Positions 1,461 through 6,732 of a stretch of DNA of 64,000 nt are shown here, piece by piece. Each line of letters opens with the position of its first letter. Positions within the stretch are counted from its first letter, which is position 1. The position numbers and the translations under genes are program-made. The DNA comes from Aceticella autotrophica (GTDB lineage: Bacteria; Bacillota; Thermoanaerobacteria; Thermoanaerobacterales; Thermoanaerobacteraceae). The notes under the pieces were generated by a model. That model saw only the letters and a program-made list of their open reading frames with translations, did no database searches and was not told the origin of the DNA. Location of the stretch: contig NZ_CP060096.1 of the NCBI RefSeq assembly GCF_017357865.1, positions 1,240,001-1,304,000 on the forward strand. The letters are read 5' to 3'.

Positions 1461-1641
1461 TGTTATACAGCAAATTATTTCAATATAAAAAATGATATAA
1501 AAAGCAAAATAATTTAACCTTATCCATTATGTAAAGTTAATTAATTTTCATATCCATGTATAAGATTGGTTAATCTTGCCTACAATTATAGAAAAAAATA
1601 ATGGGGCGGTAAAATTAATTACCTCCCCAAGAAAGGTCACA

Positions 1642-2214
1642 ATGATAATTATAGCCTTTCCAATTAAAAATATACATGAATATATCGAAAATAAATCATA
1701 TTTGTACATAGATACACCATCTGGATGCCCTAATTGCAATTACAACGGTAAATTGCACAGGCATGGCTATTACTGCAGGGGTGTCTTTATCGACAATAAT
1801 TGCATAGATATTACCATAGCAAGAGTTATTTGTCCTGTATGCCATAAAACACATGCTTTAATACCGGACTTTTTAGTGCCATATTTCATCTATCCTTTAT
1901 CTGTTATTCTAACTTCCTTGAAAAAAATATTTATCGATGGACATGGCACTACATATGTTGCTGATGAGATCATTAAAGAGTTTAATTTGTCTTTTGTGAA
2001 ACAGCAAAATATCAGTTATTTCAAAATGAGATTTCTCTCGATTATGAATTATATTCACAGCTTTTTTGCTAATTTTCAAGAATACATTGAAACAATGAAC
2101 AGTTTATCACCTAAAACTTTGATAAGCAATATTTATAAATATACAAAAGAAAAGGTAAAGTTTAATTTACACTATTTTGATTTGATGAAAGTACATTTTT
2201 TCAAAAAAGTTTAG
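1642..2214 (+). CDS. Zinc-finger transposon protein, DUF6431-like
   Basis: About 190 residues. The N-terminal half has CPNC, a His-rich stretch (KLHRHGYYCRG) and a second knuckle CPVCHKTH, followed by ALIPDFLVPY and a helical C-terminal half. This layout matches DUF6431-type proteins that accompany DDE transposases in Firmicutes. A TTG at 1576 would extend it, but the ATG at 1642 has AGAAAGG six bases upstream and is preferred. It is the first gene of the element and is separated from the integrase by 230 bp. DNA or RNA binding (target choice or end recognition, as TniQ does in Tn7-like elements) is speculation. Confidence 0.7.
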   Translation: MIIIAFPIKNIHEYIENKSYLYIDTPSGCPNCNYNGKLHRHGYYCRGVFIDNNCIDITIARVICPVCHKTHALIPDFLVPYFIYPLSVILTSLKKIFIDGHGTTYVADEIIKEFNLSFVKQQNISYFKMRFLSIMNYIHSFFANFQEYIETMNSLSPKTLISNIYKYTKEKVKFNLHYFDLMKVHFFKKV

Positions 2215-2317
2215 ACTTAATTCTTGGTAGATTTTTTTTGCTTTTTTGCAAAAGTCATATTTTATCATAATTTAATCGCTATTTTTGACTGTATAATTAT
2301 TTTAATTCGATTAAAAA

Positions 2318-2326
2318 TGTTTAATC
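2318..2326. promoter_or_regulatory. Internal copy of the transposon end motif TGTTTAATC
   Basis: TGTTTAATC, identical to the sub-terminal motifs at 4773 and 4809, occurs about 120 bp upstream of the integrase gene in the non-coding gap 2215-2444. The integrase may bind here to repress its own synthesis. Confidence 0.35.
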
Positions 2327-2444
2327 TGAATTTGTCTATGTAAATTTATCTAATTCGCATTTTATTTCTCCACATAACATTTGTGAATGCACCATCATTA
2401 TCCAGTTAATAATACTTTCAAAGATAATTGAGGAGGCTTTTAGA

Positions 2445-3683
2445 ATGGATAATGATGTTAAACAAAAAATTGCTTATTTTAAATTTTCTTTGATAGCACC
2501 GCTTATCAATGAAAATTACACTCAGGAAACAGCAAAAGAATATATGGAGGTTATTACTTCTAAGGTTTATGATGTGCCTTCGTTAGGTAAAAGAGAATTT
2601 TCTCCTAATACAATTAAGACATGGCTTTACTGTTACAGAAAATATGGATTTGAAGGTCTATATCCTAAAAGCAGATGCGACAAAGGTGCTTCAAGAGTTT
2701 TAACTGATGACATTAAAGCCTATATTAAGAATCTAAAAGTTGATAATCCAAGAAGATCAGCTAAGTCAATCTATCAGGAACTTTTAGTTAAAAAGTTTAT
2801 TGACCTTGATAAGGTATCCTTATCTACAATCCAAAGATATCTTCGAAAAACTAAAATATCTACATCAGCATTGAATACAAAAGACAGGAGAGCTTTTGAA
2901 ATGGAGTATCCTAATGACTGCTGGCAATCTGATATATCTATGGGTCCATACTTAGTTATTAACGGCAAGAAGATTAAGACATACCTTATTGCTTTTCTGG
3001 ATGATTCATCAAGGTTAATAACACATGCAGAATTTTATGAGACAGATAATGTCATATCACTTATTGATGCATACAAAAAAGCTGTTTCAAAAAGAGGTGT
3101 TCCTAAAAAACTATTTGTTGATAACGGCAAGGTATTCCAAAGCGAACAATTGCATTTAATATGTGCATCATTAGGAACGTCTTTATGTTATGCTGAACCG
3201 TATTCGCCAGAATCGAAAGGAAAAATTGAAAGGTTTTTCAGAACATTAAAAGACCAATGGATGTATGGATTTGATTGGCAGAAAATATCTTCCATAGACG
3301 AATTGAATGAGAACTTGAATAAATATATTGAAGGAATATACCATCAAACAGTACATTCATCAATAAATATGAAGCCCATAGAGAAATTCATTAAATATAC
3401 TGACACGATGAAATTCATAGATTCTAAAGAAGAGATTGATAACATATTTCTCTATAGAGTCAAAAGGCGTGTAATTAAAGATGCCACAGTATCAATAGAA
3501 AAAGTCAAATTTGAAGTGCCAATGCAGTATATCGGTGATTATGTAAATATACGATATTATCCAAAATCACTTGATAAAGCATATATTTTTAGTGAAGACG
3601 GCAAACTCTTGCAAACAATACATCCCGTAAACAAAATTGATAATTCTAAGATAAGAAGAAAAGAAATAGACTTTTCTTTGTAA
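2445..3683 (+). CDS. DDE integrase/transposase (rve domain, Mu/Tn7 TnsB-like)
   Basis: A 412-residue transposase. An N-terminal helix-turn-helix region (about 1-130) precedes the RNase H-fold catalytic core. The core shows the triad as the Asp of CWQSDISMG, the Asp of LFVDNGKVF and the Glu of GKIERFFRTL, followed by a Mu-type C-terminal beta-barrel (about 310-400). GAGGAGG lies eight bases before the ATG. It would cut and join the TG/CA ends of the element. It is followed at once by the ATPase gene, as in TnsB-TnsC, MuA-MuB and IstA-IstB pairs. Confidence 0.9.
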   Translation: MDNDVKQKIAYFKFSLIAPLINENYTQETAKEYMEVITSKVYDVPSLGKREFSPNTIKTWLYCYRKYGFEGLYPKSRCDKGASRVLTDDIKAYIKNLKVDNPRRSAKSIYQELLVKKFIDLDKVSLSTIQRYLRKTKISTSALNTKDRRAFEMEYPNDCWQSDISMGPYLVINGKKIKTYLIAFLDDSSRLITHAEFYETDNVISLIDAYKKAVSKRGVPKKLFVDNGKVFQSEQLHLICASLGTSLCYAEPYSPESKGKIERFFRTLKDQWMYGFDWQKISSIDELNENLNKYIEGIYHQTVHSSINMKPIEKFIKYTDTMKFIDSKEEIDNIFLYRVKRRVIKDATVSIEKVKFEVPMQYIGDYVNIRYYPKSLDKAYIFSEDGKLLQTIHPVNKIDNSKIRRKEIDFSL

Positions 3684-3704
3684 ATGAAGAAAGAAGGAAA
3701 AACA

Positions 3705-4508
3705 ATGTTCAATGTATATTATGGATTAACTTTTAATCCATTTTCTAAAGAATGTGATGTAAAATATCACTACAAATCACAGGATTATATACAAGCAATG
3801 AGCAGATTAGAATTTTTAAAAGACAAAAAAGGATTTGGGCTAATAACAGGAGATCCTGGATCTGGTAAGTCATATACACTAAAATGCTTTGTAAATTCTT
3901 TAAATCCTAATATGTACAAGGTTGTATACATACCGATATCAACGCTTACAGTTATGGATTTTTACAAGTATTTGTCCGACGGCTTCGGATTAATACCGAA
4001 GCATAGAAAATGCGATATGTTTCGCCAGATACAGGATGTAATATTAAGCTATCATTCAAAAAACATAACTCCCGTTATCATCGTTGATGAGGCTCAGTTC
4101 ATAAGCAACTCAATCCTTGATGATTTACGCATTATATTTAATTTTGACATGGACACAAAAAATTATGCATTACTTATATTATCAGGACAGACACAATTAA
4201 TTATACAGTTGAATAGACAAGCACATGAAGCATTAAGGCAGCGAATAGTTTTAAATTATTCATTTAAGGGTTTAAACAAAGATGAAACAAAAGAATATAT
4301 AACATCCAGATTAAAATGTGCAAACTGCAATGAAACAATATTTACTGATGACGCAATTGAATTAATATATTCAAGCACAAATGGATATTTAAGAAAAATT
4401 AATTTACTTGCAGAAATGTCAATGATATTAGGAGCTAAAGAAAGTCAAAAAACTATAAATGGCGAGCTAGTATTTAGAGCTCAAAGCGATATAAATATTA
4501 CAGAGTAA
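3705..4508 (+). CDS. AAA+ ATPase, ExeA/TniB-like transposition regulator
   Basis: About 267 residues. Walker A is GDPGSGKSYT (about residues 42-51), Walker B is VIIVDEAQ, and later come a sensor-type LILSGQ and the arginine-rich EALRQRI. The layout matches ExeA/TniB/TnsC-type ATPases, which activate a DDE transposase and deliver it to target DNA. The first ATG after the integrase stop opens MKKEGKT, but AGAAGG stands before the ATG seven codons later, so MFNVYYGLTF is the likely start. The folded RNA region begins only ten bases after its stop. Confidence 0.88.
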   Translation: MFNVYYGLTFNPFSKECDVKYHYKSQDYIQAMSRLEFLKDKKGFGLITGDPGSGKSYTLKCFVNSLNPNMYKVVYIPISTLTVMDFYKYLSDGFGLIPKHRKCDMFRQIQDVILSYHSKNITPVIIVDEAQFISNSILDDLRIIFNFDMDTKNYALLILSGQTQLIIQLNRQAHEALRQRIVLNYSFKGLNKDETKEYITSRLKCANCNETIFTDDAIELIYSSTNGYLRKINLLAEMSMILGAKESQKTINGELVFRAQSDINITE

Positions 4509-4517
4509 TTGTATGTA

Positions 4518-4649
4518 TGAGTGTATCTTCTTCTCCGGAGGGGATAGGGAAATGCAGGGGTGCAACCTGAGCACTTCGGAGAGGGTTGGTGCCATAAAAC
4601 AACTTTCTCCCGGTTCAATCCGGGGGAGAAGATACATTCAAGATGGCAT
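4518..4649 (+). ncRNA. Candidate structured RNA inside the transposon
   Basis: A GC-rich island in AT-rich DNA. P1 pairs 4518-4539 with 4619-4640 (22 continuous pairs, three G-U). P2 pairs 4557-4563 with 4571-4577 (loop AACCTGA). P3 pairs 4578-4588 with 4600-4610 (11 pairs, loop GTGCCATAAAA). The P2 loop AACC can pair with GGTT at 4612-4615, and the P3 loop TGCCAT with ATGGCA at 4643-4648. The seven G-U pairs would become A-C mismatches on the other strand, so the plus strand is favoured. I do not recognise the class. It lies between the ATPase gene and the right end, so it may be the 3' UTR of the transposition operon. Confidence 0.75.
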
Positions 4650-4772
4650 TTACCCAAAAAGCGTAAAACCCAAAAATGAATATCCTTAAAACAATAGGAC
4701 TATGATTTTAGAATAATAGGATCTTGTAGATTGTATAATGTGAATTTTTGAGTAAAAATAATATTTAGTGAT

Positions 4773-4853
4773 TGTTTAATCTTTATACTTTTTTATGATA
4801 AGTCAGCTTGTTTAATCTCTATTTTTTAGGATGTGATATCTTGCTGTTTAACA
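4773..4853. repeat. Right-end repeats of the transposon at 36-bp spacing
   Basis: TGTTTAATC at 4773-4781 and 4809-4817 and the terminal TGTTTAACA at 4845-4853 are spaced exactly 36 bp. A weaker relative, TGTATAATG, is at 4732-4740. At the left end GATATAAAAAGC (1494-1505) resembles the inward-read right-end motif GATTAAACAAGC, so the two ends are asymmetric. Confidence 0.7.
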
Positions 4854-5055
4854 TGATATCTGAAATTTCACTAAAAATATCTTCCGGTTTATTCGCCTTG
4901 ACTCCTTTTGCCGTAAGCCCAAGCTTTTCTGCTGCCTTTATTAACCCATATGCACTTGTTCCCTGCTTATCAGTTCCTGCAGATTCTCGTATTTTTGATA
5001 TAGGTATTTTAAGTCCGTACTGCTTTGATATCGTAGCAAGACATGCAGCACCGCA
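4854..5055 (-). pseudogene. C39 peptidase (bacteriocin ABC transporter) fragment A
   Basis: The minus strand encodes CGAACLATISKQYGLKIP and, further on, GTSAYGLIKAAEKLG and KANKPEDIFSEISDI. This is the start of a C39 peptidase domain, including the catalytic-Cys motif, of bacteriocin-processing ABC transporters. It begins abruptly at the Cys codon, has no start codon, lacks the later His/Asp region, and ends at the transposon. It is the 5' flank of the split repeat unit 1. The fragment 4854-4859 is also the right target-site duplication. Confidence 0.8.
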
Positions 5056-5263
5056 ATTTTATACATATGTAGTGTTTAAATATGTTCATTAGCTATCACT
5101 TTTATCAAAATATACTTTTAATCATATTAAACAATTATTCTTTATATAGTTAAAATTAAATCTTATTTTCTATTTTTTATATCTTTTGCTAATAACACTA
5201 AACAATAATTACAGATAAACAACCTACTAAAAATGGTATAATAAGTTTCAATAAAAAATATTT

Positions 5264-5656
5264 CTAAAGATATTTCTTATCTAAATATTTCACCATTATT
5301 ATTACTAACGTAATTACTATCCACGATATGATCAAGTTAGTATTTGTTAATGGATTTTGTTTTGTATTTATTCCCTCTATAAATGTTAAACTTATAAAAA
5401 GTAAATTTGCCCAATTAATAAGTAACATTCCATAAAACAATTTTCTTATACTTTTTAATCCATTAGTAACATTATAATTGAAAATTGAATAGCCATTTAA
5501 AATAAGTTGTGAGGAAGAAAACATAAGAATTAAAAACGTATATATAAAATCTTTATTAGATATACCATCACCTATAGCTACATCTATAATTAAAACAATA
5601 TTTAATATAATAGTAAGAATCGATAAAGAATAAGTTAGAGGTAATATTTTTTTCAT
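5264..5656 (-). CDS. Four-helix membrane protein, possible immunity protein
   Basis: 130 residues, almost entirely four hydrophobic helices (about 8-28, 36-56, 72-92 and 105-125) joined by short polar loops, with Lys at both ends. AAGGAG precedes the ATG. It follows the double-glycine peptide gene at 5748-5975 by about 90 bp in the same orientation, which suggests a self-immunity role; no family is recognised. Confidence 0.6.
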   Translation of the reverse strand: MKKILPLTYSLSILTIILNIVLIIDVAIGDGISNKDFIYTFLILMFSSSQLILNGYSIFNYNVTNGLKSIRKLFYGMLLINWANLLFISLTFIEGINTKQNPLTNTNLIISWIVITLVIIMVKYLDKKYL

Positions 5657-5747
5657 TTCTAAAAAACTCCTTAAATTTAATATAATTTAATAAAATGAAA
5701 AAAAAATAAAGGTCAACCTTAAATCAAAAATAAATTTTTATATTTTA

Positions 5748-5975
5748 TCAATCCTTTAAACCATGATAAAGCAAATCCCATGAAGTACCTAACCCAAAAT
5801 AGTATGCAGCTACAACTGGAATAGTAATTTCTGGTGCTGCTGCTAATGTTTCAATTGCTACTATATCTCCTAATGCACTTAAACCAACTTCATAATAATT
5901 AACTCCCCCATCCACAGCTATCAAATTATCTTCTGTCAATTCCATAAATCTATTTAATGGCATTACAGCTTCCAT
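5748..5975 (-). CDS. Double-glycine leader bacteriocin-like peptide (75 aa)
   Basis: The leader MEAVMPLNRFMELTEDNLIA continues to VDGG. The core of about 51 residues starts VNYYEVGLSALGDIVAIETL and ends YHGLKD. GGAGG precedes the ATG at 5975. Repeat unit 2 lies directly upstream. The leader is almost identical to that of the 906-1175 gene while the core is unrelated, so the two genes share a promoter and secretion signal but deliver different peptides. Antimicrobial activity is inferred from the leader. Confidence 0.82.
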   Translation of the reverse strand: MEAVMPLNRFMELTEDNLIAVDGGVNYYEVGLSALGDIVAIETLAAAPEITIPVVAAYYFGLGTSWDLLYHGLKD

Positions 5976-5995
5976 CTCTTTCCCTCCTCTCCTTT

Positions 5996-6250
5996 TCGTT
6001 TTTTATCCGGATGTTTATTTCCAATGAAAGATCTTCCAGAAATAATGTAACATTTATTTTTATCTCGTACAAACCTTAAATATTATCATTTTTATCCAAT
6101 TTCATCCGTTTTTTTTTTTTTTTTTTTTTGAATTATCTTATTCTTACTTTATTTTACTCTGTTTTTCTTTAATTTTCAAAATTTTTATGTATTTTTAAGC
6201 CTTTTCATGATACTATATTTTTATTTTTAACATAAATTTTACATTGATAT
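5996..6250 (-). repeat. Repeated leader/promoter unit, copy 2
   Basis: TTGAAA (6174-6179), a 17-nt spacer and TAAAAT (6151-6156) form a sigma-A type promoter on the minus strand. It is followed by a 21-nt poly-A tract (6109-6129) and the micro-ORF 6015-6053 (MLHYFWKIFHWK, stop). The unit joins the C39 fragment at ACATTGATATCT, the intact version of the site where the transposon entered copy 1. Confidence 0.88.
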
Positions 6251-6446
6251 CTGGAATTTCACTAAAAATATCTTCCGGTTTATTCGCCTTGACTCCTTTT
6301 GCCGTAAACCCAAGCTTTTCTGCTACCTTTATTAAGCCATATGCACTTGTTCCATGCTTATCCGTTCCTGCAGTTTCTCTTATTTTTGATATAGGTATTT
6401 TAAGTCCGTACTGCTTTGATATCGTAGCAAGACATGCAGCACCGCA
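6248..6446 (-). pseudogene. C39 peptidase fragment B
   Basis: This is a close paralogue of fragment A: CGAACLATISKQYGLKIP, then GTSAYGLIKVAEKLGF and PEDIFSEIPDI. It again starts abruptly at the Cys of the peptidase motif and has no ATP-binding region. Its end runs directly into repeat unit 2, so transporter sequence was fused to a peptide-gene promoter during duplication. Confidence 0.8.
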
Positions 6447-6450
6447 ATAA

Positions 6451-6732
6451 ACCTGTCTTATTATTTTTTCTTTTTTTAGGAAACTTTATATAATTCATAA
6501 TTTTTGATGTTGCAAATCCTAAATAGTTGTTACTAATTATATCTACTATATACCTTTACCTTAAGTATAATTTTAATCATAAAAAGAAAATTATAAACAT
6601 CCTTAATAATTTTATTTTATTTCTACTTTAATAATCGATTACAATAGAAATGGGAAGTACATTACACTAAACAACACTACTGTCATTTATACTAATCTTT
6701 ATTCTACTAATCTTTATGTATTTTTTAATTTT
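6451..6732. other. AT-rich non-coding stretch
   Basis: Between the C39 fragment and the terminator at 6733 I see no open frame with a ribosome-binding site, and no strong hairpin. It is probably decayed transporter or immunity DNA. Confidence 0.4.

Follow-up and report, generated by a model that had tools for sequence, protein, structure and literature searches.

A predicted pseudoknotted RNA in a DDE transposon of Aceticella autotrophica and its relatives in unrelated mobile elements

The host transposon and its structured RNA

The 64,000-nt stretch of DNA analyzed here, from the thermophilic, Clostridia-type bacterium Aceticella autotrophica (the window; all coordinates are positions in it, on the plus strand unless marked) holds a transposon whose DDE transposase and ATPase genes are followed by a structured RNA, placed between the ATPase gene and the right end just as the original prediction from the bare sequence had it. 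Comparison with homologs shows that this predicted RNA is a member of a previously undescribed family of structured RNAs in mobile elements. Its members are found across the Firmicutes in no fewer than six unrelated types of transposon, namely the window's own type (DDE transposase, ATPase, and DUF6431 protein), IS256, IS3, IS30, IS110, and IS21. The element and its genes are as follows.

1461..4853, plus strand: whole transposon, 3,393 bp, with terminal inverted repeats TGTTAnACAGCAA and ends TGTTATACAGCAA.. and ..TTGCTGTTTAACA; ends and duplications are seen here and in other copies in the same genome
1576..2214, plus strand: DUF6431 protein with a cysteine-rich N-terminal domain (Pfam PF20020, E 6e-11)
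2445..3683, plus strand: DDE transposase, IS481-like, with rve and Mu-transpos_C domains (Pfam; NCBIfam IS481 E 7e-55, below the family cut-off)
3684..4508, plus strand: AAA_22 ATPase, ExeA/TnsC/IstB-like (Pfam AAA_22, E 3e-22)

The transposon is flanked by a 6-bp target site duplication, TGATAT (1455-1460 and 4854-4859), and a paralogous empty site near 6235-6250 is the second copy of the segment that it interrupts. In the host genome the RNA is present nine times, and eight of these copies are 99 to 100% alike. At four of the host-genome copies with both ends readable, the 6-bp duplications all differ (TGATAT, CCACAG, TTATAG, and GTAATA).

Fold and covariation

A covariance model built on the 51-nt core of the RNA was searched against 398 Bacillota genomes and matched 67 of them (E up to 0.1), although the weakest of these matches are chance: those below approximately E = 1e-4 show the motif, and those above approximately E = 5e-4 (L121, L122, L128, L130, and L131) are chance-like and were left out of the counts. 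In other genome samples, the RNA was found in 36 of 83 members of one class and 3 of 59 members of another. Aligning 50 distinct sequences, we found 93.7% of cells paired in the core hairpin and two-sided changes in 15 of its 16 pairs (covariation score of 0.639 versus 0.221 for shuffles, 0/500; maximum of 0.133 for slid versions). The same alignment bears out the predicted preference for the plus strand, with 45 G-U cells against 19 A-C cells, and on this count a DNA-level hairpin or an RNA from the opposite strand was ruled out. A small open reading frame starting from the ATG at 4552 was also rejected, since this triplet is ACG in 11 of the 50 cores, others have no preceding A, and hairpin lengths vary irrespective of codons. 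The predicted parts of the window's RNA are listed here.

4520..4671, plus strand: structured RNA, supported by core covariation, with 3' tail AAAGCGnnAAAC and higher identity than the adjoining noncoding flank
4520..4529, plus strand: P0 5' strand, pairing with 4629-4638; an equivalent helix with other letters occurs in L072, L107, and L088
4629..4638, plus strand: P0 3' strand, pairing with 4520-4529
4532..4582, plus strand: core hairpin P1-P2-P3, from the 50-sequence alignment
4532-4540/4574-4582, plus strand: P1, part of the core hairpin
4541-4546 (GGGATA) and 4569-4573 (GAGCA), plus strand: internal loop of the core hairpin
4547-4549/4566-4568, plus strand: P2, part of the core hairpin
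4553-4556/4561-4564 and 4557-4560, plus strand: P3 and its purine tetraloop, part of the core hairpin
4583..4595, plus strand: pseudoknot 5' strand GGGTTGGTGCCAT, pairing with 4643-4655
4643..4655, plus strand: pseudoknot 3' strand ATGGCATTTACCC, pairing with 4583-4595
4606..4628, plus strand: P4 hairpin, CTCCCGG..CCGGGGGAG, with covarying stems present in relatives
4656..4671, plus strand: conserved single-stranded tail AAAAAGCGTAAAACCC, with the motif AAAGCG(A/T)(T/A)AAAC 3' of P4 in most members

Within the core, the conserved letters are the unpaired ones: the invariant, purine-rich internal loop reads AGGAUA on its 5' side and GAGCG on its 3' side, whereas P2 (GGG/CCC) is swapped for GAG/CUC, GUG/CAC, or UGG/CCA, each in single lineages. 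Beyond the core, a 5' pyrimidine strand (GGCUCUU or GCUUU), the variable hairpin P4, and the tail AAAGCGAUAAAC recur in most members. On either side of P4 stand UUCU and AGAA (alternatively, UUU and AAA), and the 5' strand changes together with the purine strand of P4 (25 UCUU/AGAA, 13 UUU/AAA, and 1 mixed, counts that are not independent by descent). This co-change would fit either pairing or a three-strand contact and does not choose between the two. The strands of P4 pair much better with their own partners than with those of other members (-15.8 versus -9.5 kcal/mol; mean rank of 5 of 34).

Four divergent sequences (the window, L072, L107, and L088) have the longer P0 helix together with a pseudoknot that joins the stretch after P1 to the stretch after P0. 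In the window this pairing (4583-4595 with 4643-4655) reached -19.0 kcal/mol, and none of 1,000 shuffles was as good (-5.8 ± 2.3 kcal/mol). The pseudoknot has 10 to 13 pairs, made of different letters in each of the four sequences, and their own pairings (-19.0, -15.2, -11.3, and -14.3 kcal/mol for the window, L072, L107, and L088, respectively) were stronger than every cross pairing. The contact first proposed between TGCCAT and ATGGCA is therefore right, and it is longer than proposed, being remade with different letters in three relatives. Covariation among homologs, named at the outset as a check on the RNA, holds for both the core and the pseudoknot.

The region from 4500 to 4670 folds with an energy of -70.3 kcal/mol, compared to -43.1 ± 3.6 kcal/mol for shuffles (z of -7.5; 0/200). 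The 22-pair closing helix of the original prediction is present in this minimum-energy fold, which coincides with the conserved fold only in part. The outer portion of the helix is kept as P0; its inner portion (approximately 4530-4539 with 4619-4628) excludes the covarying P1 and has not been conserved. Similarly, the 11-pair hairpin described earlier is a competing alternative, mutually exclusive with the pseudoknot, and a suggested contact of AACC with GGTT found support in no comparison. The RNA is also longer than first drawn, since its conserved 3' tail reaches approximately 4671. In its general claim, a large, pseudoknotted RNA under selection on the plus strand of a DDE/AAA+ transposon, the original prediction was right.

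Between the window and relatives from the Thermoanaerobacterium group, the RNA differs at 1 to 4 of 158 positions and the next 155 noncoding bases at 15 to 18 of approximately 154 (97 to 99% identity versus 87 to 91% in the adjoining flank). The single distant relative in the genome collection is a Clostridium metagenome-assembled genome (L041). Its ATPase and transposase are 57% and 56% identical, respectively, a DUF6431 protein accompanies them, and the motif GGATAGGGnAAnGCnGGGnnGCnACCnGAGCnC lies immediately 3' of the ATPase gene. A search of the region against Rfam 15 found no family at the gathering threshold (the best were miRNA hairpin models, e.g., 26 bits versus a threshold of 78), and permissive thresholds likewise recognized no known RNA.

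Carrier elements and distribution

Carrier families were named with NCBIfam and Pfam. An IS256-family transposase lies near the RNA at 24 loci or more, and IS3 carriers account for approximately 16 loci. IS30 is represented by one element in two genomes, IS21 by one carrier, and IS110 by a single element in five copies (G175), the only IS110 carrier. Carriers with a DDE transposase and an ATPase comprise seven lineages besides the window's. At one further locus (L238), left out of these counts, a copy of the RNA adjoins an IS66 transposase remnant, which may represent a further carrier family.

The RNA moves together with its element. In one genome (G325), exact 3-bp duplications border seven IS3 copies in which the RNA lies 104 bp from the end; in another (G414), duplications of approximately 8 bp border seven IS256 copies. 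The five IS110 copies and the window's own transposon likewise enclose the RNA within the mobile unit. IS256 and IS3 carriers include simple elements of approximately 1.5 kb; many carriers are degenerate, and many remnant copies of the RNA occur without an intact transposase. Placement depends on the carrier: in IS256, IS3, and IS21 elements, the RNA and the transposase gene are arranged tail to tail, with the RNA running from the element end toward the interior and finishing beside the stop codon of the transposase; IS30 has it upstream of the transposase in the sense orientation; and in the DDE and ATPase type it lies 3' of the ATPase gene, sense and outward, as the 3' end of the operon. Upstream of the insertion-sequence RNAs, a sequence match to a -10-like box stands at a fixed distance (among 53 distinct upstream regions, 70% have TANNNT, versus 20% of shuffled ones). 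In insertion sequences, the RNA would usually be a separate gene with its own putative -10 box near the element end.

Similarity among the RNAs does not follow the transposases that accompany them. The RNA of an IS3 element (L125) is 69% identical to that of an IS256 element (L081) but 50% identical to that of another IS3 element (L112), and the IS110 RNA (L105) is 66% identical to an IS256 RNA (L091), which shares 54% with a second IS256 RNA (L083). Because RNA similarity does not track transposase type, the RNA has probably been exchanged, as a module, between one type of element and another.

Among relatives of the window's ATPase, the RNA is present in all examined lineages at approximately 48 to 62% identity (the window group, L041, L072, L107, and L155). 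At 45% identity or less, it was found only in L079/L161 and L205 (43 to 44%) and in L088 (33%), and some elements without it reach 11 copies per genome. Since most ATPase relatives (approximately 45% identity or less) are without the RNA, the transposase-ATPase machinery does not require it generally. Given also its presence in the five insertion sequence families, it is not a property of TnsB/TnsC-like elements. Loci L017 to L030 (genomes G002, G004, and G001, of the same bacterial family) hold a relative of the ATPase element, at 44 to 45% identity, without the RNA, and a short GAGAGTAGTAGC/GCTACTCTC hairpin lies directly 3' of the ATPase gene there.

Searches of phages and plasmids gave only matches at IS256 ends and chance matches. 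Among viral contigs the core matched five times, and four of these matches fall in loci with IS3; further scans yielded nothing. One GC-rich viral contig (L182, at approximately 10743 on the reverse strand of the stored locus) has a perfect RNA core but lacks the 3' tail at its usual place, and no transposase was recognized nearby. In a provirus contig (L183, approximately 4430-6700), the P4 part of the RNA in an IS3-type element is split by an apparent reverse transcriptase-containing group II intron.

Two further observations concern the surroundings of the window's transposon and its copies. Another copy in the same genome (L187, approximately 294800-298900) sits inside a CRISPR array, with 11 repeat matches across its two sides. 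Around the window's copy, bacteriocin-like precursor genes are repeated on the minus strand (906-1268, 5748-5975, and approximately 121-345) with the common leader MEAVMPLNxFMELTE..GG, and one copy of their duplicated flank is split by the transposon (1205-1455 resembles 5990-6250).

Possible functions and comparison with known systems

We tentatively favor, with confidence a little short of even, a new family of transposon-borne small RNAs that would act in trans through a host factor and affect the carrier without choosing its target. Constant loops combined with variable stems fit protein binding; the constant internal loop and tail would bind a conserved host factor, one present in all hosts, and the carrier would thereby be affected in its expression, in how often it transposes, or in how well the host tolerates it. 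The RNA itself would shift among element types as a module. As for the outcome, control of transposition or host tolerance is our likeliest guess, held with moderate confidence. A broader version is possible, if doubtful: a general transposon-helper RNA, one module, swapped among unrelated DDE and DEDD families, that captures a conserved host factor and thereby controls transposition, which would leave phylogenetically unrelated elements reliant on a single RNA-protein contact. Several points weigh against a small RNA acting in trans on behalf of its carrier. The transcript, its partner, and any phenotype are all putative, and the -10 box is a sequence match rather than a mapped start. Orientation varies between insertion sequences (inward) and the DDE and ATPase transposon (outward). 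Finally, the degenerate carriers and the patchy distribution across genome classes could indicate a plain hitchhiker.

The strongest rival, which we consider rather unlikely, develops this last point: the RNA would be a selfish passenger gene that persists by being carried and gives transposons nothing. Such a passenger would account for the patchy distribution, the unrelated carriers, the remnants without intact transposase, and the many ATPase relatives that manage without the RNA; however, a useless passenger in an active element would be expected to decay, and this RNA is both more constrained than its flank and kept in every examined lineage of the 48 to 62% group. Distinctly less probable is a cis-acting insulator or terminator, at which incoming transcripts would fold and stop, so that neither external nor antisense transcription reaches the transposase gene. 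The inward direction in insertion sequences, the end beside the transposase stop codon, and the GC-rich hairpin that often follows would suit this role, but that hairpin is absent in several members and usually comes without a T-run. Moreover, no terminator was found in 4200-4900, the window's type points outward, and termination needs neither the invariant internal loop nor the 12-nt constant tail.

We regard three other roles as very improbable. A structured, transposon-encoded RNA beside a transposase operon, with IS110 among its carriers, invites comparison with guides for transposition of the bridge RNA or CRISPR-associated transposon (CAST) kind. Yet the same RNA occurs at the four unrelated targets in the host genome, at seven different IS3 sites, and at seven IS256 sites; its sole strongly variable part, P4, can shrink to a 4-nt loop (L241); and the carriers include families that need no guide. 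Because identical or near-identical RNAs stand at different targets, the role of target guide, which the original prediction had entertained, is disfavored. It is equally hard to credit RNA-OUT-like repression, in which the RNA would silence its own transposase through antisense or trans base pairing. The tail-to-tail genes of IS256, IS3, and IS21 would allow one, but the RNA is in the sense orientation in IS30 and in the DDE and ATPase transposon, and its pairing with the start of its own transposase gene ranks 6.7 of 12 on average (chance, 6.5), so that an antisense role is disfavored for the start region. Lastly, a self-cleaving ribozyme or other catalytic RNA could be compact, pseudoknotted, and rich in invariant unpaired letters, as this one is, but no Rfam ribozyme matched; we give this role little credence.

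Our literature search found no description of this RNA. Narunsky et al. 2024 (PMC11109978) counted 250 mobile/repeat sequence candidates (MRSC), most of them undescribed there, which resemble this RNA as structured, multicopy motifs near transposases; it may have been sighted earlier, unnamed, among them. The only one described in that paper's main text, MRSC-65-2, is a single long stem with UYCCGG repeats, unlike this RNA.

Antisense regulators of the kind represented by RNA-OUT of IS10 are also encoded by small RNA genes inside insertion sequences; here, in contrast, there is no complementarity to the start above chance, several families are involved, and the structure is strong. The guide RNAs of CAST elements (Tn7-like) likewise lie in the right-hand part of elements that encode both a DDE transposase and an AAA+ ATPase, but 1461-4853 contains no CRISPR array or Cas-like gene beyond its three genes and no spacer-like variation. 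The omega-RNA of TnpB/IscB (HEARO) is a structured RNA near a transposon end as well. It needs TnpB or IscB, whereas the window's element encodes only the DUF6431 protein, DDE transposase, and ATPase. The guide of omega-RNA reads past the transposon end; the conserved part of the window's RNA ends at 4671, approximately 180 bp inside the right end, and the full transcript may reach farther. The bridge RNA of IS110 and the seekRNA of IS1111 share with this RNA a conserved fold and a position near the transposase of an insertion sequence. They differ in being tied to one transposase family, as opposed to six carrier families here and an IS481-like DDE carrier in the window, and in having loops that match target and donor, whereas this RNA is constant at differing targets and shows no coupling to them. 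To our knowledge, each known transposon RNA is tied to a single protein family; an RNA with strong covariation in at least six unrelated families implies that all these elements use one host partner in common, or else that RNAs of a new type live by riding on transposons.
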